A DNA stretch of 64,000 bases, taken from NCBI GenBank assembly GCA_949948985.1, contig CATLIG010000001.1, positions 1 through 64,000 of the forward strand, read 5' to 3'. This DNA comes from an uncultured Clostridia bacterium (GTDB lineage Bacteria > Bacillota > Clostridia > Lachnospirales > CAG-274). The notes beneath the pieces were generated by a model. That model saw nothing but the letters and a program-made list of their open reading frames with translations. It was not told the DNA's origin and made no database searches. The translations under genes and the position numbers were made by a program. Numbering within the stretch: position 1 is the stretch's first letter; each line of letters begins with the position of its first letter. Positions 2,824 to 57,186 of the stretch are shown one piece after another.

Positions 2824-4086
2824 ATGTTCCAGCCTAATTTGACTGATTTGATAGATATTCGCACATTACAGCGTATACAAGACGGATTTTCCGCTTACAC
2901 AAAAATGGCGTCGATTACCGCTGATGCCAACGGAATACCGATAACAAAAGAAAGCAGGTTTACAGATTTCTGTATAAATCTTACGAGAAAATCCGTTCTT
3001 GGCTGTAAAAGATGTAACGAGTGTGACAGGGCGGGAGCCATTAAAACCCTTTACAGTGGTAAACCTATTGTTTATTATTGTCACGCGGGACTTATAGATT
3101 ACGCGTCGCCTATAATGATTAAAGACCATTTAATAGGATGTTTTATAGGCGGACAAGTCCGCACGTCTGATATAGACGAGGATAAATTCGCGAAAACGGC
3201 AATTGAGCTTGGTCTTGACCCAAAAGAATATGTAAAAGCCGCCAAATCGGTAATATTAATGAGTAAAGAAGAAGTTGAAGCGGCTGCAAAATTTTTATAC
3301 GAGATAGCTCACGCCATATCAGAAATGGCGTATAAAAATTATACATCTCTTCAAAAAAGCATAAAGCTTGAAAAAGCAGCAAGAGCTCAGTCTGTTTTTA
3401 TAATGGATATAACCTCAAGCACTCATAAAAATCTGCGAAAATGTATATCCGTTTCAAAAAAAGCTCTTGAGAATAATAATTATAACTCTCTTTTTTCCGC
3501 TGTAAAAGAAAACCTTAATACAAATACCGATACACTTTCAACAATCGAGGACGCTATTGAATACATAAAAATGTCCGGCGGGGAAATTGAGTTGTCGGAA
3601 AACAAATATAAAGTCCGTGATATATTCACACGGTTTATAGAATCAGCAAAAAACTTATCTAAAGGGCGCCCTATTGAGTTTTCTCTTAACATAGATGAAA
3701 ACGTTCCCGAATATCTTATGGGAGATTCTGGAAGAATTGGACAGATAGTAAATAAACTTATATTAAACAGTCTTCACTATACAAAAATCGGTAATATATC
3801 AGTAAAAATATTCTGTGAAAAAGTTTCTTACGCGTCAATGCTTAATATAGTCGTATCAGATACAGGAATAGGAATGACCTCTGACAAGCTTGATATAATT
3901 CTTTCACATCTGAAAAAAGGAAATATATATTATCCCGAAAATGCAGAAAATTCCAATCTTGGTTTTTATGTAATAGGTCTTTTAATAAAACAAATGTCAG
4001 GTAAAATAACAGTAGACAGTATTCCGAATAAAGGCTCGGTTTTTAAAATAAGCCTGCCTCAGCTTGAAATAAGGGGAGTGAAATAA
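2824..4086 (+). CDS. PocR-domain sensor with histidine-kinase-type ATPase domain, H-box His absent
   Basis: 420 residues, with GGAG upstream of the ATG. Residues 1-175 match the PocR ligand-binding domain, with the conserved cysteine cluster around CKRCNEC and a YYCHAGL segment. A helical region (about 185-215) sits where a dimerisation/phospho-acceptor domain is expected. Its H-box equivalent reads FIMDITSST, so the usual Ser-His-Glu is replaced. Residues 285-418 are a HATPase_c domain with an N-box (LNSLHYT), a G1 box (DTGIGM, near residue 349) and a G2-like NLGFYVIG. ATP binding looks intact, but classical His autophosphorylation does not. The next gene starts 3 bases after the stop and encodes a c-di-GMP phosphodiesterase-like protein, so the pair probably forms one signalling module responding to a small ligand. 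No transmembrane segment is seen, so it is cytoplasmic. Confidence 0.85.
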   Translation: MFQPNLTDLIDIRTLQRIQDGFSAYTKMASITADANGIPITKESRFTDFCINLTRKSVLGCKRCNECDRAGAIKTLYSGKPIVYYCHAGLIDYASPIMIKDHLIGCFIGGQVRTSDIDEDKFAKTAIELGLDPKEYVKAAKSVILMSKEEVEAAAKFLYEIAHAISEMAYKNYTSLQKSIKLEKAARAQSVFIMDITSSTHKNLRKCISVSKKALENNNYNSLFSAVKENLNTNTDTLSTIEDAIEYIKMSGGEIELSENKYKVRDIFTRFIESAKNLSKGRPIEFSLNIDENVPEYLMGDSGRIGQIVNKLILNSLHYTKIGNISVKIFCEKVSYASMLNIVVSDTGIGMTSDKLDIILSHLKKGNIYYPENAENSNLGFYVIGLLIKQMSGKITVDSIPNKGSVFKISLPQLEIRGVK

Positions 4087-4088
4087 TA

Positions 4089-5774
4089 ATGCCTTTTGAT
4101 ACAGTAAAATATTCCGAGCTTATAGATAATTTTATTATCGATATTGAAAACTTTAATGATGTAACACTCACAGATACCCCTTTATGCTGTAAAAATCTAT
4201 GTAACTTTCTGCGTATAGGAAAAATAAATATAGTCGTTCATTCATCTTTTGAAATCCTGTCTGAAAACGCTGATGAAAGTATAAACTTTTACACATCGGA
4301 AAATTATGATAAAGACCGTTTTCAAACAATAAAGGAAAACTTTGGAGAAAATTCTGTCGTCTTATACAAAATTTATCAAAAAAAGAATGATGCTGAATGG
4401 AGCAACTATGAGCTAAAAAAAATACGCGTTTTTCAAAAGCTTATTCATTCATTCAACAGTAAATCAAAAATATTAAAACTTATAGACGACTTAAAATTTA
4501 AAGACAGTGGATTGGGAATATATAATCTGAATTATTTTCTAAACAAGCTTAAACGTCTGTCAGAAAAAAAAGAACTTTCATCGTATTGCGCCTGTTATTT
4601 CAATCTTCGTCATTTCTCTTCAATAAATCATCAAATAGGCAGAAAAAACGGAACAAAAATAATGATTTTATTTATACAAAAGCTTAATGATATGTTAGAT
4701 GTGGATGAAGTCGTTGGACGAATAGACGGGGATAATTTTTGCCTTTTGTTTAAAAAACATAAAACAGACAAAATTATAAATTATCTCAGGGGTACGGGAA
4801 TTGTATATGACGATAAAACAGAAAACCGGATACTTCTTTCAGCCTCTGCCGGATATTATATGATTCCTGATGATACCTTATCTGTAACAGATATTACAGA
4901 CAGAGTGTCAGCCGCGTTAAATATAGCTAAAAACACAAAAACCGTCGAATATATATTTTTTGATAAAAAATTAATGGACAAACTTGAATATGCTAAAAAA
5001 ATAGAAAGTATGTTCTATAAAGCTTTGGAAAATGAAGAGTTTCAAGTGTATTTTCAGCCTAAAATCTCATTAAACAATTATCAGCTTGCCGGAGCGGAAG
5101 CTCTCTGCCGATGGTTTCATAATGGTAAAATACTTCCTCCCGACAGTTTTATCCCTATACTTGAGCAAAGTAAAGCGATTTGTTTTCTTGATTTTTATAT
5201 GCTTGAGCACACTTGTATGAATATACGTAAATGGCTTGACCGTGGTCTTAACGCGGTAAAGGTTTCCGTAAATCTTTCAAGGCGCAATCTTGGAGATATG
5301 GATTTACTGGATAATATACTCAGAATAATAGATAAATACAGCGTTCCTCATAAATATATAGAAATAGAGCTTACAGAAACAGCGGTAGATGTAAACTTTG
5401 ACGAACTGAAAAAAATAGTGCTTGGACTTCAGAAAGAAGGTATAAGCACGTCTGTTGATGATTTCGGAATGGGATATTCCTCATTGAGTCTTATACGCGA
5501 ACTACCATGGAATGTTCTTAAAATTGACAAAAGCTTTCTTCCCGAAGATATGAGCGATAAGAAAACGACTCAAAAACTTATTATGTTAAAGCATGTCGTA
5601 GCTATGGCACAGGATATAGGACTTGAATGTATAGTCGAGGGAATAGAAACAATAGACCAAATCAAATTTTTAAAAGAAAATAACTGCTTTTTAGCTCAGG
5701 GATTTTATTTTGATAAACCTATGCCTGTAAGAGAGTTTGAGGACAAACTGGCAAAAAATCCGTCTAAAGATTAA
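4089..5774 (+). CDS. Degenerate GGDEF plus intact EAL protein (probable c-di-GMP phosphodiesterase)
   Basis: 561 residues, translationally linked to the PocR sensor gene (2 bases between stop and start). Residues 1-135 are an unrecognised N-terminal region. Residues about 140-300 are a GGDEF domain whose signature is degraded to DGDNF (near residue 214), so cyclase activity is unlikely. It might bind GTP and act as a regulator. Residues 312-555 are an EAL domain with EAL in AGAEAL, NLSRR, ELTE, DDFGMGYSSL and KIDKSF, plus EGIET, that is, the metal-binding and catalytic positions expected of an active phosphodiesterase. Predicted role: hydrolysis of cyclic di-GMP to pGpG, controlled by the upstream sensor. 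It is cytoplasmic, with no membrane segments seen. Confidence 0.9.
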   Translation: MPFDTVKYSELIDNFIIDIENFNDVTLTDTPLCCKNLCNFLRIGKINIVVHSSFEILSENADESINFYTSENYDKDRFQTIKENFGENSVVLYKIYQKKNDAEWSNYELKKIRVFQKLIHSFNSKSKILKLIDDLKFKDSGLGIYNLNYFLNKLKRLSEKKELSSYCACYFNLRHFSSINHQIGRKNGTKIMILFIQKLNDMLDVDEVVGRIDGDNFCLLFKKHKTDKIINYLRGTGIVYDDKTENRILLSASAGYYMIPDDTLSVTDITDRVSAALNIAKNTKTVEYIFFDKKLMDKLEYAKKIESMFYKALENEEFQVYFQPKISLNNYQLAGAEALCRWFHNGKILPPDSFIPILEQSKAICFLDFYMLEHTCMNIRKWLDRGLNAVKVSVNLSRRNLGDMDLLDNILRIIDKYSVPHKYIEIELTETAVDVNFDELKKIVLGLQKEGISTSVDDFGMGYSSLSLIRELPWNVLKIDKSFLPEDMSDKKTTQKLIMLKHVVAMAQDIGLECIVEGIETIDQIKFLKENNCFLAQGFYFDKPMPVREFEDKLAKNPSKD

Positions 5775-26958: not shown

Positions 26959-27088
26959 TAAAAAAACCTCTTTCGAGGTCGCGCGTGAAGTCTCATCTTC
27001 CGGAATACCCCGGGGGAATTAGCACCGATGCGTTAATGCCGGTTGCCGGGTTTCACAGGGCCCTTATCCCTCCACCTCTCTTGATAAG
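26959..27088 (-). promoter_or_regulatory. SAM-I (S-box) riboswitch with terminator, before metK
   Basis: Minus-strand aptamer with the S-box consensus: CTTATCAAGAGAGGTGGAGG, then GGCCCTGTGAAACCCGGCAA, GGTGCTAATTCC and GGAAGATGAGA. A terminator follows (GACCTC/GAGGT stem at 26966-26979, T run at 26959-26965). About 190 bases separate it from metK. SAM binding should favour the terminator and shut metK down. Confidence 0.97.
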
Positions 27089-27186
27089 TATATGAACAAT
27101 ATGCAATTAAAATTTATTAAGGTACTTTAATTTATAGCAATTTCTATTCGGAGTCTTTCCAAAATTGATTTAAGTACACTATAGTA

Positions 27187-39549: not shown

Positions 39550-42500
39550 TTATTCAACCGCAGGTTCGTTTTCCTGTTCGTCAGCTACTGACTCATCTGT
39601 ATTTGTGTCATCTGCATTTGCATCATCTGTAATTTGCTCGTCAGCATTTGATTCATTTACATCTGAGTTGTCGGTTTCCACAATTTCCTCTTTTGGTTCA
39701 TTGTCAGAATCATCCAAATCAACAGTGTCTGAATTTTCATCTGTATCAGCGTTTTCAGTAATATTTTCATTTTCCTTATCAGCGCTTGTATTTTCATCAT
39801 CAATAGAATTTAATGACATTATAATACCGCCGCCACCTTCAGCTTCATATTCTGTAGTAATATTAAGGTCTGTTATATCGGCTGACACCGCAAAAGAATA
39901 ATCATTTCCGCTTGTGCCATTTATAGCTTTTATGCTGTATCCATCATTTGTAGTCGCCACAACCTTATAATTTCCTACAGGCACATCACTTACACTGAAA
40001 GAAGTTGACGCTATAGCGCAAGAATATTCACTGTTATCATCAGTATTTACAATTTTAAGCCTTGATAAAGCTCCATTGTTGTCAATACTTCCTCTTACGC
40101 TGTATGTTTGTACATCGTCGTCTGCTGTTCTGAATTTTTTATAACTTACAGTAATATCGTCCATATAATATTCTATAGCTTTTTGATATGGATAGAACGC
40201 AAGTGTAAGATTGCTTCTGTCAGCTTCTGTTGGGAATGGGTGATGAGTTCCGCCCCAGTTCCATGCGTTTGGATACGCATCTGTTTCTGTATCAATAGTA
40301 GATGCCTTACTTCCTTCCAGCTGCACCTGACCTTTCATATTCTTATTAGCATAATCAATAGTCAAATCACTTGTATACCATTTTGTATATCCATTAACAT
40401 TATTATCACTGGCATTAAACTTTCCATCACCATACCCAAGATAGAAGTTTGCATTTTTATCTCTATAATTTATCTGTTGATGCTGGTCGCCATAATTTGC
40501 CCTTACAAAGATATTATCGTTAGTAGAAGTTCCTGGTTGGCTTTTAACTTCATTTGTAAGTCCTGACGCTATATCCACAATAGGTTTTTCATAGCTGGAA
40601 ACATTAGCTTTCATCTTATAAGAAACGGTAACTTGGTCGCTGTCTGCCAAATCAGAAACAAGTTCTCCCAAATTCCAATAAATACCGGCATTTCCTGAAT
40701 CTCCCGTAGAAGTCAATTTTAATACATTCTGACTGCTGTCGGCAGGGTCTGTCGCAAGTTCAGCCTTAAATACGTTGCTGCCATTATTGATAATAGTACC
40801 TATATCACTTGCGTTGTCAAAATTAATTTTGTATACCTTATCAATAAGCTGACCCACAGCTATATTTAAACTCTTAGTATCTCCTGTATTGCCTGTAACA
40901 GTAAGAGCGTCAGCGTTTTTAGGTTTATAGCTCTCATTGTTTGTGGAAATATTCACGTCATAAGTTTCTCCTGACGGAATTCCCTCAATACTGTAGTTAC
41001 CTGTTGTATTTCCTGAGCCGATAGTTACAATTTCTTCTTTAACAACGTTTTCGCCTTTATTTATTTCCACCTTAACGTCAACATCGGTTTCAGGAGCGAA
41101 ATCAAATGTAATATTTCCGCTTACGGTAAAGAAATCAGTCTTTGTTGTAGCAAACTTAACTGTATATTCTTTCTTGTAAATAACGGGATAAGGTACGGTA
41201 CTTCCGTTATAAATATCTGTATATTCACTGCTCTTTACTGTAGCGATAAGCTTAGCCGTAGTACCTATATCTTGTTTTTTAAGAGTTACGTTTCCGTTTG
41301 TTCCTATTTCAATAGCGTTTGCTTTGTCAGTAGCCCATTCGATTGTCTTTCCGTCCGCTGTAGTCGGCAGAGTAAGAGTAGTATCACTGTCAATTTCTGT
41401 TGTCGGAATATTTACCCCTGCCATAGCCGTATCCAAATCACTTGAAAAATCAGTGTTAATTGTTTTTATACGAATATTGTCAAGACAAAGATAATCTTTA
41501 TCTCCTCTTGAGGCATATTCACTTTGCAATTTTAAAAGCTTAGGAAGTGCGTCATTGTACTTTGTAGAAGTCTTATATCCGTCCTCTGTAACTACATCAA
41601 TGTTTTTATTTATAGTATCTACAATAAATTTCACATTATACCAATTTTCGGATGCACAATCTGTAATAATATCTTCTTTAGTCGTACCGTAATTTGGGTC
41701 TGAGGAGTACTTTCCGTTACGTACTTTAAATTTATTAGCTATATAACCGAAATGCTGTGAATGATTATCGCCTGTAAATGATATATTCCAGCCGACAGAA
41801 CTGTTAGACGCAAGTGTATTTGGATTTGCTGTCGTATCAGCAATTCTCATCATATCAAAGCTTATTTCATAAACTTTTCCCTCTTCCAAACTATACTTGT
41901 CAATAACAACAACATCTATGTCCTTTCCGTTCTTAGCCTGATCAAATTTAACATATCTGCCTCTGTCCGCTGATGAAACAATCGTTCCACCCTTGAAAGC
42001 GGAATCTTTTGCAAGACCCTCAAAATCTTCTTCAATCACGTCAGATTTCTTTTCAGGAACAAGTATTTTCACTTCATAATTTTCAGTATCGCCTGTATCT
42101 GTATGAGTAATTACAAAAGTTACGTCTTTTGCGGTAGCCGTACTGCCGTAAGCTCCTCTTTTAAGAGTACCGTTGGCATTTACAGCGTCGTTTGTGTTTA
42201 TAGCAAAAGTATATCCTTCTTCTGTAGGCATATCAAATGCTTTGTCAATAGTATATACCTTTGTAGCATCGTCATAGCTGCCTACGCCTTTAAGTGTATC
42301 AGCTATAGCCTTTTCTGCCGCTGTAAAATCAGTAGCCGCTTTTGCTGTTACTGTAATTATGGTATCAGCTCCTAAATTAATAGTATAAGAACCATCTGTA
42401 TTAGCTGTTAATTCATTTTCACCGATTTTAACGCTTGAAATGGTATATCCGCTGTTTACTGTAAATTTAACCGTATAAGCTCCGCCGTCAATGTTGCTTG

Positions 42501-45500
42501 TCAAAGTTGTACCAACAGCCGTTTCCGGAACAACCTCGTCAGTACCTTTCAGAATGGTTGCTTTAAGACCCGCGTCCGCTGAAGAACTGTTAATAGTAAG
42601 GTCAAATTTAGCAACAGGAGTATCTCCTGACGGAACATACGCTATAGTATATTCTTTTACAAAGGTAATATCATATCCTTGTCTGGCGTGCCCCTCAAAA
42701 GGCATAGACTTTTTAACGGTTGCTATAAGTTTTACAGATAATTCCGCCGTAGCCTTTGAAAAATCTATAGTTGCTTTTCCTATACCCTCTGTAATAGTCA
42801 CAAGATTAGCGCTGTCAGTAGTCCATTTTATATCAAGACCATTAGCTGTAACAGTAGGAACCTCTTTGCTTACAGCCAAAGTAATGCTTTCCGGAATTTC
42901 AACATCAATCATTGTTTCGTTGAAATCAGCCTCAATGTCCGCTTTAGATGGGAATTCCTCCACAACTATATCGTCTATATATATTTTAGCCGTTGGAGCG
43001 TAATAAGTATTAATTAATAATTTGTCAGGGAGTGTACCCTCCACTCCTTTATATGACGATACATAAGTACCGTTTATATAAGCGTCGATATTTCCTGTTT
43101 CTGTATCGCATACATATGTTGCTCTATACCATTTTCCGGCTTCGCCGTTTTCAATTAAAGGCTTGCTGCCCTCAACAGGTCCACAACCCTGTACATTTCC
43201 AGTTGAAGAAATATTCATATTATTTCCGTCATAAAGGAAATCGGCAAATAATCCAAGCTGTAATCTCCAGCCATTGTCAGAAACATTGTCTTTCATAAAA
43301 TCATAGCTTATAGCATAAGTTTTACCCGCTGTCATACCTTCAAATACAGAAACGTCTATTTTGTCATTAAAACCGCCTGAATTATTAGCAAATTCAAACA
43401 CGTTTCCTTTTCCGGCATATTTAACGATATTAGCTGTAAAACCGTTATTTGATATTGTAGAACCTATAGCTTTATCCTCAAAGTTTTCATATTTCAATAC
43501 ATTATCAACAACTATCGGATATACTCCATAAGTAACTGTATATTCTTTGTCCTCTGCTAAATTTTTAATTTTATAATTTACAAATCCATATCCGTCAGGG
43601 TGGCTTGCCATAAAGGCTTTATGCTCGTCGCTGTTCTTTTTAAGTATAATCAAAGACCCATCAGTATTTACACAGCCGTTTTCGGAAGAGTCAATAGAAA
43701 TCTCAAATCCTGTCACATTTACAGGATAAAGAGCCTCTTTAAGCTGATATACGCCTATAGTCTTTTCCTGACCGTCTAAAGTTACCGTAACATCTTTTTT
43801 ATACTCGGCATATTTGTCAAACATTGACTTAACAGCCGTTTCTCCGGCAGAAGAACCTGCAGTATACTCAGCGATAACCTCAATATCGCTTATATCTGTT
43901 TTTTCGCTTACTGTAAGATAATACTTTCCGTCCTCAAAAGAAACGCTTGCTCCTTTTATTTCTTTAAGCTGTGCTATGCCGTCTGTAGTATATGAGATTT
44001 CATATTTTCCCGGATTAATTTTGTTTTTAAATGTAAATGTACTGCCTGCTCCCGGTTCAGGTTCTCCCGGTTTTACTCCGGAAAACTCATAGCTTGAGTT
44101 CAATACCTTAGCGACAATTTCAGAAACGTCTTTTGCTGTTAAAATATCATCGCCGTCAACATCACCCATATACTTAATCCTTTCAGGTGACTCAAGTGTT
44201 CCTGAATAGTTTTCTTTGTTGAGAACATAATCCAGAAGAACAGATGCGTCGTTCATATCAAAAACACCGTTTCCGTCTACATCGCCTCTGTCGTCGTATA
44301 CATTAACAATAGTAGCTTTATGTGTATACTCAGGCATATCAACGTTTATAAGCTCAATGCCTGTAATTCCCTTTGAAACCTTACCTGCTACGTTTACACC
44401 GTTAGCAGTGTCCTCTGCCTCAATAAATTTCTCAAAAGCAATAGTAGGTGCTGAAATATAAATTTCATCTGTATCTGAATCTGTATTTTTACCCTGAGGG
44501 TAGAACATCATTTTAAGCTTTGTAATATCAGCTTTTGAGGGAAGTCCCGTAAATGTGTAAGGTACGTTTCCCTTTTTGCCCTGAGGACTGTCTATAGTCA
44601 CTTTATTATCCTTAAAGTTGATAATTACCGTCACATCATTCCAGCCTGTGTTACCGCTGTTAGTGAATTTTCCGCCTCCCTCTCCCTCAAAAAGGTTAAG
44701 GAATTGAGTTTCATTATTAGATGCGCCGCTTCTGTTGCCTACAGTATATTTTAAAATATTAAGCTGCTGCCAGCTGTCAATCTGCATACGGAGATATCTT
44801 TCCTCATCGCCTGCGTTAGCGTATGCTTTTGGTTCTGCTCCGATAAGGTCAATTACGTTTGTTTCTTTTCCCATAGCATTAGCTTTCATACTGAAAGATA
44901 CTCTTACCTGGTCTGCTTCTTCAATACCTTCTAAATTACTTGCCTTTGCAATAGAAGCGAAATCCCAGTAAAATTGCTGTTTTGTATTCGTACCGCTTTG
45001 GGGACGTTTATAATGATAAACCTCTCCCTTTTCAGCATCGTTTATTTTTTCAAAGGTGTATCCGCTTGCGGGAGTTCCTATAGCGTCGTTTGCTTTTTTA
45101 GATACCGTGGTCAGCTTTCCTATCTCAATATCCAAAGTATAAGGAGTATCTACCTCGCCTGTAAATTTTTTAACGTCCCCGTTTTTCACAGCGAATTTAT
45201 CACTGTCAAGCTTAATTTGGAGATTGTATTCAGCCGCCGGCAAATAAGGAATTGTATATTCGGTTTCTTCCGAATTAGCTTTAATTACCGCCGTAACAGG
45301 CTCTGTCAAAGGTTTGAATCCGCTTGTCTGTACAGGTTCAAGAGAAACTGTTATATCTTCTGACGGGGCGATATTTGTTGTTATTTTTCCTTTAAGGTCA
45401 AATGTACCCGCAGGTGTTTCCACTTGTTTAATAACAGTTGAAAGTTCTCTTTCAACACCGTCTATAGTTCCAGCCTTTTTAATATACGCTGTAAATTTAA

Positions 45501-47136
45501 CCTCTTTATCTCCTTGACCGTAAATAGGTCTTGTTACGTTTACTGTTTTTCCGTCTTCAGCGATTTCAGCGTACTTACTATCAACATAATAACTTACCTC
45601 ATATCCGGCGGGAGCGTCGGGAAGTTTAAAGTTTTCAGTATATGAATCATTTATTGTAACAACAGCTTCCTGCTCGATTGTTTTCCATTTATCAACAACC
45701 CCCGCAGGGTCCCAGCCGTCAAAGCTTTCAGCAAGAGCGTTTTTAAACGCCGTATATCTGTAAGGATTGTATTTTACTACAGTATACTCGTCAAGAAGCC
45801 CTCTTTTAAATCTTTCGTTTGTAGTTCCTCTTCTTGTGCTTGTATCAATAGCTTTACCGTTTATATCTTTAGTGTTGTATTCAAAATAGCCTCTGGCGTC
45901 TTCAGGTTCACAACCCATTCCGCCCCAGCCTGAGCCTTCCAAGTGAGCTTTGTTGTTTACTTTGCTTATTTCAGAAATTGTATTTACCCATACGGTTTCA
46001 GTATTTTGAGCGCCCCATGGACGTCCGAAATTCACCTGCTCGGTCGTGTCGTTTCCTGTTACTCTACAGTTGTAGAATAAATACCCGTTAGCAGGATACG
46101 CCGCTGTAGAGGCCGCTGTCAAAGCTCCGCCGCCATCGCCGTCGCCTGTGTAAGGAGATGATTCCCAGTGAATATTGCAGTTGTCAAAAAGCATTTGACC
46201 GCCGCCGCATATAAAATCTACAGTACCCGCTAAATAACAGTCTTTAAAATAAGCTCTTCCGCCTGTGCCTATAGTATCCTGAGTAGCTACCACCTTACAG
46301 TTTACAAATACAGCCTTGTCAGCCTCTGTAAATAAAGCGCAGCATCTTTCTCTCCATGCTTTTGCTCTTACGTCGTTTCTTAATTTCGCGGTTTTTCCGC
46401 CGGGAGAATATGTAACCTCTATTTGACTGCCGTCGCCTGTTCCTGGACTAAGAACATTTCTTTCAGGATAAGTATAGCCTTTTGCCACGTCGCCTGTATT
46501 TTGATTAACTCTTACGTTTACGGCAAGCTCTTCCTCTGTCACATAAAGGTTAAATGAGTTTTCAAAATAAATATCCTCTGCCCTGAACCCTGTTGCTCCT
46601 TTCTGAATCCATGTAGAGCGTCCCCAACCGGGCATTTTGTCCGCATATGGGTTTCCTTTTTCCTGCGTATTAGGGTTTGACGTATCCACATCTCCGTCTG
46701 CCCCTACATTGTCATATGTATAATTTGTACCCCAGTACCATGTTAACTTTGCGTCTTCCTCTGCTGAGGTTGAATTGGTAATTTTTTTAAATGTAATCCA
46801 CGGTGCGTTCACACGTATATGCTCACGGTAAACACCCGGTACAATACCTATTACAAAAGGCTTTTCCTCTGTACCGCCCTCTCCCGCTGCCGTTACAGCC
46901 TCACGTACCGTTTTATAGATAGGCTGACCTTCTCTTGATGGATTAGAGGCGGAAATTCTTCCGTCAACCACAATGTCATAGCCGTCATAAACAGCGTCTT
47001 CGGGAGCTCCCGTAACGGTTTCTTCAGCGAGAGATACTTCGTCGGCGTAAGTAAACGCTACACCCGAAAATACGCTTGTAAAAAACAGACAAATTGCTAC
47101 GGCATTGCTTATAAGCCTTTTTAATGTCTTGTTCAT
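39550..47136 (-). CDS. Giant secreted multi-module pectinesterase (CE8)
   Basis: 2528 residues with an AAGGAGG site upstream. Signal peptide (about 1-31). CE8 pectin methylesterase domain (about 45-440): QDT near 287, GTVDFICGG with the catalytic Asp near 306, and GRPWG with the substrate-binding Arg near 369. Then beta-sandwich and carboxypeptidase-regulatory-like modules (about 510-920). An internal dockerin-like pair (about 950-1017, DVDGNGVFDMNDASVLLDYVL and DVDGDDILTAKDVSEIVAKVL) has good calcium ligands. After a Pro-rich linker come three concanavalin-like modules (near 1214, 1700 and 2100), alternating with bacterial Ig-like ones (near 1410 and 1910). The last 80 residues are Asp/Glu-rich with no membrane anchor, LPxTG or SLH module. 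It removes methyl esters from pectin, preparing it for lyases. The extra modules probably bind polysaccharide or the cell surface. Confidence 0.92.
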   Translation of the reverse strand: MNKTLKRLISNAVAICLFFTSVFSGVAFTYADEVSLAEETVTGAPEDAVYDGYDIVVDGRISASNPSREGQPIYKTVREAVTAAGEGGTEEKPFVIGIVPGVYREHIRVNAPWITFKKITNSTSAEEDAKLTWYWGTNYTYDNVGADGDVDTSNPNTQEKGNPYADKMPGWGRSTWIQKGATGFRAEDIYFENSFNLYVTEEELAVNVRVNQNTGDVAKGYTYPERNVLSPGTGDGSQIEVTYSPGGKTAKLRNDVRAKAWRERCCALFTEADKAVFVNCKVVATQDTIGTGGRAYFKDCYLAGTVDFICGGGQMLFDNCNIHWESSPYTGDGDGGGALTAASTAAYPANGYLFYNCRVTGNDTTEQVNFGRPWGAQNTETVWVNTISEISKVNNKAHLEGSGWGGMGCEPEDARGYFEYNTKDINGKAIDTSTRRGTTNERFKRGLLDEYTVVKYNPYRYTAFKNALAESFDGWDPAGVVDKWKTIEQEAVVTINDSYTENFKLPDAPAGYEVSYYVDSKYAEIAEDGKTVNVTRPIYGQGDKEVKFTAYIKKAGTIDGVERELSTVIKQVETPAGTFDLKGKITTNIAPSEDITVSLEPVQTSGFKPLTEPVTAVIKANSEETEYTIPYLPAAEYNLQIKLDSDKFAVKNGDVKKFTGEVDTPYTLDIEIGKLTTVSKKANDAIGTPASGYTFEKINDAEKGEVYHYKRPQSGTNTKQQFYWDFASIAKASNLEGIEEADQVRVSFSMKANAMGKETNVIDLIGAEPKAYANAGDEERYLRMQIDSWQQLNILKYTVGNRSGASNNETQFLNLFEGEGGGKFTNSGNTGWNDVTVIINFKDNKVTIDSPQGKKGNVPYTFTGLPSKADITKLKMMFYPQGKNTDSDTDEIYISAPTIAFEKFIEAEDTANGVNVAGKVSKGITGIELINVDMPEYTHKATIVNVYDDRGDVDGNGVFDMNDASVLLDYVLNKENYSGTLESPERIKYMGDVDGDDILTAKDVSEIVAKVLNSSYEFSGVKPGEPEPGAGSTFTFKNKINPGKYEISYTTDGIAQLKEIKGASVSFEDGKYYLTVSEKTDISDIEVIAEYTAGSSAGETAVKSMFDKYAEYKKDVTVTLDGQEKTIGVYQLKEALYPVNVTGFEISIDSSENGCVNTDGSLIILKKNSDEHKAFMASHPDGYGFVNYKIKNLAEDKEYTVTYGVYPIVVDNVLKYENFEDKAIGSTISNNGFTANIVKYAGKGNVFEFANNSGGFNDKIDVSVFEGMTAGKTYAISYDFMKDNVSDNGWRLQLGLFADFLYDGNNMNISSTGNVQGCGPVEGSKPLIENGEAGKWYRATYVCDTETGNIDAYINGTYVSSYKGVEGTLPDKLLINTYYAPTAKIYIDDIVVEEFPSKADIEADFNETMIDVEIPESITLAVSKEVPTVTANGLDIKWTTDSANLVTITEGIGKATIDFSKATAELSVKLIATVKKSMPFEGHARQGYDITFVKEYTIAYVPSGDTPVAKFDLTINSSSADAGLKATILKGTDEVVPETAVGTTLTSNIDGGAYTVKFTVNSGYTISSVKIGENELTANTDGSYTINLGADTIITVTAKAATDFTAAEKAIADTLKGVGSYDDATKVYTIDKAFDMPTEEGYTFAINTNDAVNANGTLKRGAYGSTATAKDVTFVITHTDTGDTENYEVKILVPEKKSDVIEEDFEGLAKDSAFKGGTIVSSADRGRYVKFDQAKNGKDIDVVVIDKYSLEEGKVYEISFDMMRIADTTANPNTLASNSSVGWNISFTGDNHSQHFGYIANKFKVRNGKYSSDPNYGTTKEDIITDCASENWYNVKFIVDTINKNIDVVTEDGYKTSTKYNDALPKLLKLQSEYASRGDKDYLCLDNIRIKTINTDFSSDLDTAMAGVNIPTTEIDSDTTLTLPTTADGKTIEWATDKANAIEIGTNGNVTLKKQDIGTTAKLIATVKSSEYTDIYNGSTVPYPVIYKKEYTVKFATTKTDFFTVSGNITFDFAPETDVDVKVEINKGENVVKEEIVTIGSGNTTGNYSIEGIPSGETYDVNISTNNESYKPKNADALTVTGNTGDTKSLNIAVGQLIDKVYKINFDNASDIGTIINNGSNVFKAELATDPADSSQNVLKLTSTGDSGNAGIYWNLGELVSDLADSDQVTVSYKMKANVSSYEKPIVDIASGLTNEVKSQPGTSTNDNIFVRANYGDQHQQINYRDKNANFYLGYGDGKFNASDNNVNGYTKWYTSDLTIDYANKNMKGQVQLEGSKASTIDTETDAYPNAWNWGGTHHPFPTEADRSNLTLAFYPYQKAIEYYMDDITVSYKKFRTADDDVQTYSVRGSIDNNGALSRLKIVNTDDNSEYSCAIASTSFSVSDVPVGNYKVVATTNDGYSIKAINGTSGNDYSFAVSADITDLNITTEYEAEGGGGIIMSLNSIDDENTSADKENENITENADTDENSDTVDLDDSDNEPKEEIVETDNSDVNESNADEQITDDANADDTNTDESVADEQENEPAVE

Positions 47137-55359: not shown

Positions 55360-55499
55360 CAAAGTTTTTAGTGCGAGCCAAGAAAATAATTTCTTAATAT
55401 ATCAGTTTTATTAAAATTTGTCTATCATTATTTTATTGGTCTGCTATAAATAATTATATTTAATAAAATATAAAACATCATTTTTATTAAACAGGTCTA
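55360..55499. repeat. Probable diverged family B element ending in the dgc stop codon
   Basis: Only the right end is clear: AAACAGGTCTA (55489-55499). Its last three bases, read on the minus strand, are the TAG stop of the diguanylate cyclase gene. The left end cannot be placed with confidence. Confidence 0.5.
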
Positions 55500-56804
55500 T
55501 TCAATTTTGTCATATAAAGTAACTTTATTTTTTCCTGTGTGTTTACTTTGATACATAGCATCATCAGCACGTTCAATACATTCGTCAGGTGATGAGTCCA
55601 CGAGTTTAAAATGCGAAACTCCCACAGATACTGTAACCCTTATATCATTTCCGGGAACAGAAACAACAAGTTCCTCAATAGCCGCTCTGATTTTTTCAGC
55701 TATTATAACAGCGGGTCTTATATAAGTATACTTAAAAAAAACAACAAATTCCTCACCGCCCCACCTTGCAAGAATGTCATCCTGACGAATAGAATTTCTG
55801 ACAGTTTCCGAAACCTTTTTTAAAACCTCATCTCCAGCGGCGTGACCATATGTATCATTTATTTTTTTAAAATTATCAATATCAAAAAGTATAGCAGAAC
55901 TTACAAGCTGACCCGCCTTAAAATTTTTAAAAGCGAAAGTCATTTTCTCATTAAGATACTTTCTGTTAAAGCACTTTGTAAGAGGGTCTATCTGTGCCAT
56001 TTTTTTAAGTTCTTTATATTTTTCATCGGTTTTAAGTTTTTCTGTTAAAAATTGTTTTTCAAGGTTTTTATAATAAAGAGATTCTATATAGCATAATAAT
56101 ACAAACATAATAATTATTATCAGAATCATAACTATTAAAAATAATGTAACCTTTCCTTTATCCCCCGCGCTTGATTTTTCAGAATATACAGAAGCCAACT
56201 TTTCTACTTTACTATTGTAAAAACAACACGTCACAATTAAATCAGTTTTATCATTATATACACAATAAAATGTTCTTTTTTCTGTATTCTTGTATTTTTC
56301 AGAATAAAAATTTTCCACTTCTAAAGCGGAATTTTTCATTTCAAGTTTTTTTATAAGTCCGTATGAAGGATAAAATATATCATTGGCTAAACGCGTGGCA
56401 TCGTATCTGTTTTCAGAATTATTTTCAGACGAGTACTCAGAATTAAATATAGTATGTACGGAAACACTTTCATCATCATATATAAAAACATTTTGTACAT
56501 AAATCTCAAATCCCATTTTTCCTGAATTAAAGCCATCTAAAACCTCAAACATATATTCTTCTTTTTCCCCCTTATCAAGATAAGCGTCTGTTTTATCAAG
56601 GGCATTAGCTATATTGTAGACACTGTTAGCGTAATTAACTATATCTTTGTTAAGAGAATTTAATATCATATCCTGATACGCTTTTTTTACATCGTTTCTA
56701 TTGTAATTTGCCGTAAGTATAATTATAACGGAAAAAGAAATGAAAATAATCAGTAATATAAAAAACAGTACAAAATAGAACTTGTATCGTAACCTTGTCA
56801 TCAT
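55497..56804 (-). CDS. Membrane diguanylate cyclase with extracytoplasmic sensor domain
   Basis: 435 residues from the ATG at 56802-56804, after AAAGGAGTG; the next codon is also ATG. First membrane helix about residues 9-31, an extracytoplasmic sensor region (about 32-215), second helix about 217-243, then a short coiled coil and a GGDEF domain (about 265-435). The signature is WGGEEF (near 348) with intact flanking residues (DPLTKCFNRKYL, FDIDNFKKINDTYGHAAGDE), so it should make cyclic di-GMP. No RxxD inhibitory site is evident. With the EAL protein at 4089 this window encodes both synthesis and breakdown of c-di-GMP. Confidence 0.93.
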   Translation of the reverse strand: MMTRLRYKFYFVLFFILLIIFISFSVIIILTANYNRNDVKKAYQDMILNSLNKDIVNYANSVYNIANALDKTDAYLDKGEKEEYMFEVLDGFNSGKMGFEIYVQNVFIYDDESVSVHTIFNSEYSSENNSENRYDATRLANDIFYPSYGLIKKLEMKNSALEVENFYSEKYKNTEKRTFYCVYNDKTDLIVTCCFYNSKVEKLASVYSEKSSAGDKGKVTLFLIVMILIIIIMFVLLCYIESLYYKNLEKQFLTEKLKTDEKYKELKKMAQIDPLTKCFNRKYLNEKMTFAFKNFKAGQLVSSAILFDIDNFKKINDTYGHAAGDEVLKKVSETVRNSIRQDDILARWGGEEFVVFFKYTYIRPAVIIAEKIRAAIEELVVSVPGNDIRVTVSVGVSHFKLVDSSPDECIERADDAMYQSKHTGKNKVTLYDKIE

Positions 56805-57186
56805 AACACTCCTTTCGGCAAAACAAATGCGCCGCAGAATATTTGTGAAAATAAAAATAATCAAAGCTTTCGAATCTGTACGCAAGCCATAAAAAATAAG
56901 AAACTTTAAATTACGGGAAAAAATAAGAATAATATTAGACTTGTCCGTAAACTGTAGAATTGTCATATAAAAAAACTTTTTATCATATGTTTATATAGCG
57001 TTATAACGATTTAAAAATAAGCATGTTAATAAAATTATATCAACTCTCGACATTATTGTCCATTATTTCCAAGTATCAATTTTATAAATCGCATAACCAA
57101 AGTTTACAATATTATTATATCACCTTATCCAATATTCTACAATATAGAAAAAAATAAAATTTTTTTAATTTTTTTTAAAAAAAGTA
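56805..57186. other. AT-rich region upstream of the diguanylate cyclase
   Basis: About 380 bases between divergent dgc and tRNA-Ser. Very AT-rich from 57090 to 57190. The promoter of dgc must lie here but is not clear. No gene seen. Confidence 0.4.

Follow-up and report, generated by a model that had tools for sequence, protein, structure and literature searches.

A PocR-linked pseudo-histidine kinase and its EAL partner as a candidate two-gene c-di-GMP switch

The stretch of DNA analysed here (64,000 nucleotides, hereafter the window) carries two closely spaced genes that we read, at a probability of about two in three, as a two-gene c-di-GMP switch in which a PocR-driven pseudo-kinase contacts and gates an active EAL phosphodiesterase. 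A soluble PocR sensor would bind a small metabolite, and a long helix would carry the signal to a core of dimerisation and ATPase-like parts; this core, kin to that of hybrid histidine kinases and without the residues for autophosphorylation, would pass the signal on by shape, through contact with the closely coupled EAL protein, ligand binding turning c-di-GMP breakdown up or down with no phosphorelay. Judged from sequence, control without phosphotransfer is well supported, because loss of the phospho-acceptor His is conserved, a His three residues past the H-box position (H201) occurs in only 3 of 17 alignable sensors, and the pair recurs at 19 further loci. This agrees with the preliminary description, which had proposed control other than by phosphorelay, and the ATP site proves more degraded than stated there. 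Direct contact between sensor and EAL protein is what we infer from the recurrence of a dead kinase beside an intact EAL protein in many bacteria, which suggests contact control of the enzyme. If true, the pair would constitute a metabolite-to-c-di-GMP input for gut and rumen Clostridia.

The gene pair and its distribution

The elements of the window pair are as follows.

2753-2781, + strand: promoter-like site, TTTACA-17-TATAAT with TG, 42 bp 5' of the sensor ATG (consensus match only)
2824-4086, + strand: PocR pseudo-histidine-kinase sensor, 420 aa, ATG start
2845-3333, + strand: PocR ligand-binding domain, residues 8-170 (Pfam PF10114, 2.8e-54)
3394-3576, + strand: DHp-like helices, residues 191-251; H-box equivalent S198, codon 3415-3417
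3601-4068, + strand: CA-like domain, residues 260-415; N315 and D346 present, F-box and G2 absent; C-terminal PQL
4089-5774, + strand: predicted partner c-di-GMP phosphodiesterase, 561 aa, ATG start
4089-4508, + strand: partner N-terminus, residues 1-140, without a Pfam match up to E = 1
4515-4940, + strand: degenerate GGDEF domain (DGDNF), predicted unable to make c-di-GMP
5013-5720, + strand: EAL domain, all eight catalytic positions present

The two reading frames lie 2 bp apart on the same strand, and translational coupling of the sensor and EAL genes is likely, because a GGGGAG at 4073-4078, ribosome-binding-like by eye, sits inside the end of the sensor gene ahead of the second ATG. The promoter-like site is weak evidence taken alone, since the region holds 20 such sites against a shuffle mean of 14.6. 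Both flanking genes are oppositely oriented; the upstream one encodes a family-43 glycosidase and the downstream one a methyltransferase. As had been noted at the outset, no response regulator lies nearby: Pfam found no receiver (Response_reg) match within window positions 1-64000, the only one on the contig lies at 233 kb, and the whole genome has 28, 27 of them above the cut-off. The same genome holds 15 GGDEF matches, 9 EAL matches and one PocR match; a separate GGDEF protein within the window (55497-56966) is a possible source of c-di-GMP.

Searching 392 genomes of the window's order with the window sensor, we found two full-length short relatives (in genomes G288 and G309), each with an EAL orthologue directly behind it. 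A second search took the G309 EAL protein as query against 397 genomes of G309's family, 40 listed places being fetched with their context, and a third ran a nine-row EAL alignment against the GTDB genome collection, the best 80 matches being kept; with the window and one further locus (L056), these make up 122 loci. At 20 of them, the window included, a kinase-like sensor lies directly upstream of the EAL relative on the same strand, so the genome search suggested in the preliminary description did recover the same gene pair elsewhere. Gaps range from -35 to 31 bp in 18 of the 20 pairs and are 77 and 151 bp in the other two. In the survey of upstream genes, two loci (L172, L201) had no anchor ORF, six had no upstream gene, and L055 and L142 are one gene, counted once.

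Fifteen of the 20 sensors consist of PocR and a kinase-like core. Among the others, L175 combines PocR with a CA remnant and no DHp, L125 lacks PocR, L148 is cut by a contig end, L214 (from a Treponema bin) has a dCache-like head scoring below the Pfam cut-off, and L101 carries Nudix in place of PocR, possibly a metagenome-bin oddity. The L101 protein (L101:3686-4699), which fuses Nudix to a CA-like domain and gives no DHp match, adjoins its EAL partner and is either real or a start-site or assembly artefact. The hosts are many gut and rumen bacteria, 13 of the 20 pairs lying in records named Lachnospiraceae, Oscillospiraceae, Clostridium, Acetatifactor, Ruminococcus, one unplaced bacterium and Treponema.

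The EAL family as a whole seems to swap regulators, and no such sensor lies directly upstream in 93 of the 113 rows of the EAL tree, which counts against the contact model. Among relatives without the dead kinase, three (L161, L165, L168) are joined to GGDEF-like sequence in ORFs of 1092-1098 aa, and three others (L104, L105, L171) have a GGDEF-like gene upstream, with the GGDEF motif intact by eye in the neighbours of L104 and L105. The genes upstream of two further EAL relatives appear to encode a double receiver protein, judged by eye (L189:4822-5739), and a PAS protein (L163:1409-2416).

Within the window's own family of 48 genomes, 23 (the window genome included) have an EAL match at E 1e-60; the kinase-like sensor is absent upstream of the EAL gene in the two best other family genomes inspected (G018 and G004), and no full-length sensor match occurs in the family outside the window genome. 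With the pair found only there among the 48, its horizontal gain is possible. The PocR proteins of two genomes of the same genus and of one order relative (G001, G002 and G056), considered as ordinary kinases, were rejected as such, having PocR and an MCP-like C-terminus, by eye, instead; the corresponding loci (L002, L003, L004) show PocR joined to a short C-terminus of this kind.

The kinase-like core of the sensor

The PocR domain of the window sensor is recognised at 183.7 bits against a Pfam cut-off of 23.9; no solved PocR structure was found by sequence at E 0.1. PocR domains are reportedly predicted to sense simple hydrocarbon derivatives. HATPase_c matches at residues 300-413 (Pfam, 2.6e-14), whereas neither HisKA nor any DNA-binding family matches the sensor up to E = 1; with HATPase_c as its C-terminus, the protein is unlike a PocR transcription factor. 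At the H-box position, the window reads S198 within FIMDITSSTHKN, where hybrid PocR kinases read FLANMSHEIRTP. The window sensor retains the N-box Asn (N315) and the G1 box (DTGIGM, 346-351), including D346, G348 and G350, but the F-box Phe is replaced by L363 and the G2 motif GTGLGL by NSNLGF (376-381). Of what a kinase requires, the window sensor thus has the DHp-CA fold (AF2 model and structural matches, residues 170-416), and lacks the phospho-acceptor His, a complete set of N, G1, F and G2 boxes, and a nearby receiver. The loss of these residues shows that the core, on its sequence, should be unable to autophosphorylate. The ATP-binding domain had been described as intact; this holds for N315 and the G1 box and fails for the F-box and G2, with more losses in relatives, and a domain that is not intact strengthens the main claim of the preliminary description, that there is no phosphorelay.

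We aligned the pair sensors with 12 hybrid PocR kinases as controls. The absence of His at the H-box, asserted at first for the window alone, is conserved in 17 of 17 alignable pair sensors, as against a His in 12 of 12 hybrids; L175, L101 and L148 have no residue at that position and are hence outside the 17, and the residue of L214 there is uncertain. Eight kinds of residue take its place (S in four, A in four, T in three, N in two, and F, Y, M and E in one each). A conserved His near residue 199, named beforehand as counter-evidence, was not found: a His at the H201 position occurs in the window, L102 and L106, and no other helical-region column has a His shared by more than 2 of the 17 pair sensors. 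With no conserved His column, a relocated phospho-acceptor was rejected.

The nucleotide-binding boxes have decayed unevenly. Nine of 20 pair sensors retain the N-box Asn and 15 of 20 the G1 Asp, and the central Gly of G2 survives in 3 of 17. F-box, lid and G2 are all missing from L144-L146; the N-box and G1 remain in L106 and L192, and most of the CA motifs in L101 and L148. Because these last four and the window retain CA motifs, some members of the family may still bind nucleotide.

A sensor-side profile search of 397 genomes gave a similar division between short and long proteins. Of the 50 matches listed, 30 became loci and were checked for the His, the other 20 being 13 long proteins, 2 contig-end fragments and 5 partial matches. 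Among these 30 loci, four short PocR-histidine-kinase proteins lack the H-box and all are pair members (G309, G658, G514, G484), each already recovered from the EAL side, and the 26 long PocR proteins all carry SHEIRTP; no short protein without an EAL partner, or with an H-box His, occurred among the 30 loci checked.

The model of the window sensor (AF2, 12-row alignment) has a mean pLDDT of 83.7 and a pTM of 0.52, the latter too low to fix how the domains are arranged. It is predicted to run from PocR through a helix at residues 148 to 216 and a second helix ending at 251 into a CA-like sandwich with a low-confidence lid (366-376). Its best structural match is DivL (4q20_B, Z 21.6, rmsd 2.9, 223 residues), with ETR1 tied at 20.7, followed by RetS (6dk7_G, Z 20.6), HK853 (20.2) and ShkA (20.1); the c-di-GMP-bound CA domain of CckA also matched (5idm_B, Z 16.9).

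Among three close relatives (L144, L145, L146; more distant pairs are saturated at synonymous sites), dN/dS is 0.08-0.10 in the DHp-CA region (residue 170 onward), 0.07-0.12 in the PocR domain and 0.01-0.03 in the EAL domain. Values near 0.1 show that in these three the kinase-like core is maintained by purifying selection and is not in functionless decay. Certain residues are specific to the pair: Tyr336 occurs in 19 of 20 pair sensors and 0 of 12 hybrids, Leu414 of the C-terminal PQL in 18 of 20, and, in the EAL protein, all 18 thinned pair rows have Tyr at the Y331 position, as against 16% of unpaired relatives. Across 15 pairs (105 comparisons), distances between sensors in the kinase-like region track those between EAL proteins with r = 0.86, a correlation that shared descent alone could yield. 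A broader reading is tentative, its chances slightly short of even: these may be members of a modular family of phosphodiesterase regulators, in which dead cores related to those of PocR hybrids bear exchangeable heads (PocR, dCache in the Treponema bin, possibly Nudix) and gate a dedicated EAL protein by contact, perhaps through a Tyr336/PQL face and the EAL Y331 loop.

In the PocR tree, 14 pair sensors cluster (support 81/82) with L106 and L192 apart; the pair state needs 2 changes, where shuffles need 10.2, and a single branch separates all pair sensors from the rest in only 4% of bootstrap trees. The EAL tree (FastTree, 113 rows, L213 omitted as a copy of L114) needs 3 changes of the pair label as against 18.8 in shuffles, with L106 and L192 again elsewhere. 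Both a double loss of the His in the same gene context and one old loss are possible.

The EAL partner and known systems

In the partner, GGDEF matches at residues 143-284 (Pfam, 7.1e-14) and EAL at residues 309-544 (Pfam, 1.1e-58). The preliminary description had judged the first dead and the second intact, and the wider set concurs on both counts: the GG(D/E)EF motif, DGDNF in the window, is intact in 0 of the 19 partners that have the region (L125 lacks it), and none of the 20 partners lacks any of the eight EAL catalytic positions (in the window E337, N395, E427, D457, D458, K478, E517 and Q537). Their roles as metal ligands or catalytic base we take over, by assumption, from RocR-type enzymes. 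The partner should thus still hydrolyse c-di-GMP, its GGDEF domain being predicted dead.

In the model of one relative (L149), the N-terminal region consists of helices and strands followed by a long helix, and by eye appears GAF-like. A fused chain of the L149 sensor and EAL protein, in frame and read through two stop codons, gave a pTM of 0.52, with sensor-only rows misaligned onto the EAL half, and was used for its EAL half and its fold matches; the top fold matches of the model are the GGDEF-EAL proteins PA0575, MorA and DosP, and LapD structures are also among its matches. The first three have the EAL fold in common with the partner family and differ in sensor arrangement, the window locus having a separate dead kinase-like protein before the enzyme.

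The closest known counterpart of the sensor is a DHp-CA core without its phospho-acceptor His, repurposed for protein binding. According to the published account, DivL of Caulobacter has Tyr for His, no autokinase activity and weak TNP-ATP binding, and acts by binding DivK~P; the same account gives it the other kinase boxes, PAS sensors and a response regulator as its binding target (PMC4211667). The window system, by contrast, has lost boxes, senses through PocR and has an EAL phosphodiesterase as neighbour; like DivL, its sensor has a kinase fold without a phospho-acceptor, a state conserved across orthologues. The PocR hybrid kinases (L057-L068) have the same order of PocR, helix and core at 29-38% identity over 401-422 residues, one of them (L057) reading PocR-HisKA-HATPase-REC-Hpt in Pfam. 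They differ in keeping the H-box His and in their surroundings, the 12 fetched stretches having no ORF that resembles the window's EAL protein at E 1e-8.

In the PMC open full-text literature, searched by titles and abstract openings, we found no description of a PocR/EAL pair or of a pseudo-histidine kinase controlling an EAL protein. As far as this literature goes, the pseudo-histidine kinase is a known kind of protein, and an EAL protein as its partner is new. Eukaryotic pseudo-kinases have been studied in depth; to our knowledge, few bacterial ones of the histidine-kinase type have a known job. The pair offers about 20 natural variants for studying how a two-component core functions free of phosphate.

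Alternative readings and minor observations

RetS of Pseudomonas, compared with the window sensor by fold match only, is a kinase-fold protein that works by contact and whose target is another kinase. The window sensor might likewise enter heterodimers with an active histidine kinase from another locus, the EAL gene being merely co-transcribed. The retained DHp/CA fold and the rank of RetS among the top matches are consistent with this, as is the presence of a full-length long PocR kinase in both G309 and G288. We nevertheless consider it unlikely: the single PocR match in the window genome leaves no PocR hybrid kinase as dimer mate (another kinase might serve), the EAL gene is the neighbour in all 20 pair loci, and L175 and L101, in which the alignment shows no DHp region, keep the EAL partner.

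Similarly improbable as a full account is that the CA-like domain has turned into a nucleotide or c-di-GMP receptor, so that the sensor reads ATP, or c-di-GMP in feedback, on behalf of its EAL partner. The match to c-di-GMP-bound CckA and the four residues retained in the window (N315, D346, G348, G350) speak for such a role, which would be compatible with the contact model; nucleotide motifs are gone, however, in several members (for example L102, L125, L144-L146, L149 and L214).

More doubtful still is an arrangement like that of LapD, whose own GGDEF domain is degenerate, with the EAL protein acting as a c-di-GMP receptor, not an enzyme, and the sensor reporting on it: the degenerate GGDEF and the LapD structures among the fold matches fit, whereas retention of all eight catalytic EAL positions in every partner does not. 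We give very little credence to the idea of an ordinary kinase whose phospho-acceptor has moved, to H201 or some other His, and which signals to a distant receiver; H201 is close to the H-box position and the genome's receivers are numerous, yet no candidate His is widely shared and the F-box and G2 are lost. That the pair is decaying without function, as the degraded kinase motifs alone might suggest, is contradicted by open sensor frames at the pair loci (with one truncated at the end of its contig), low dN/dS in the three close relatives and the unbroken EAL positions alongside.

Elsewhere in the window, positions 26990-27090 match a SAM riboswitch (71.9 bits), and an open frame of 2528 aa extends over 39550-47136.
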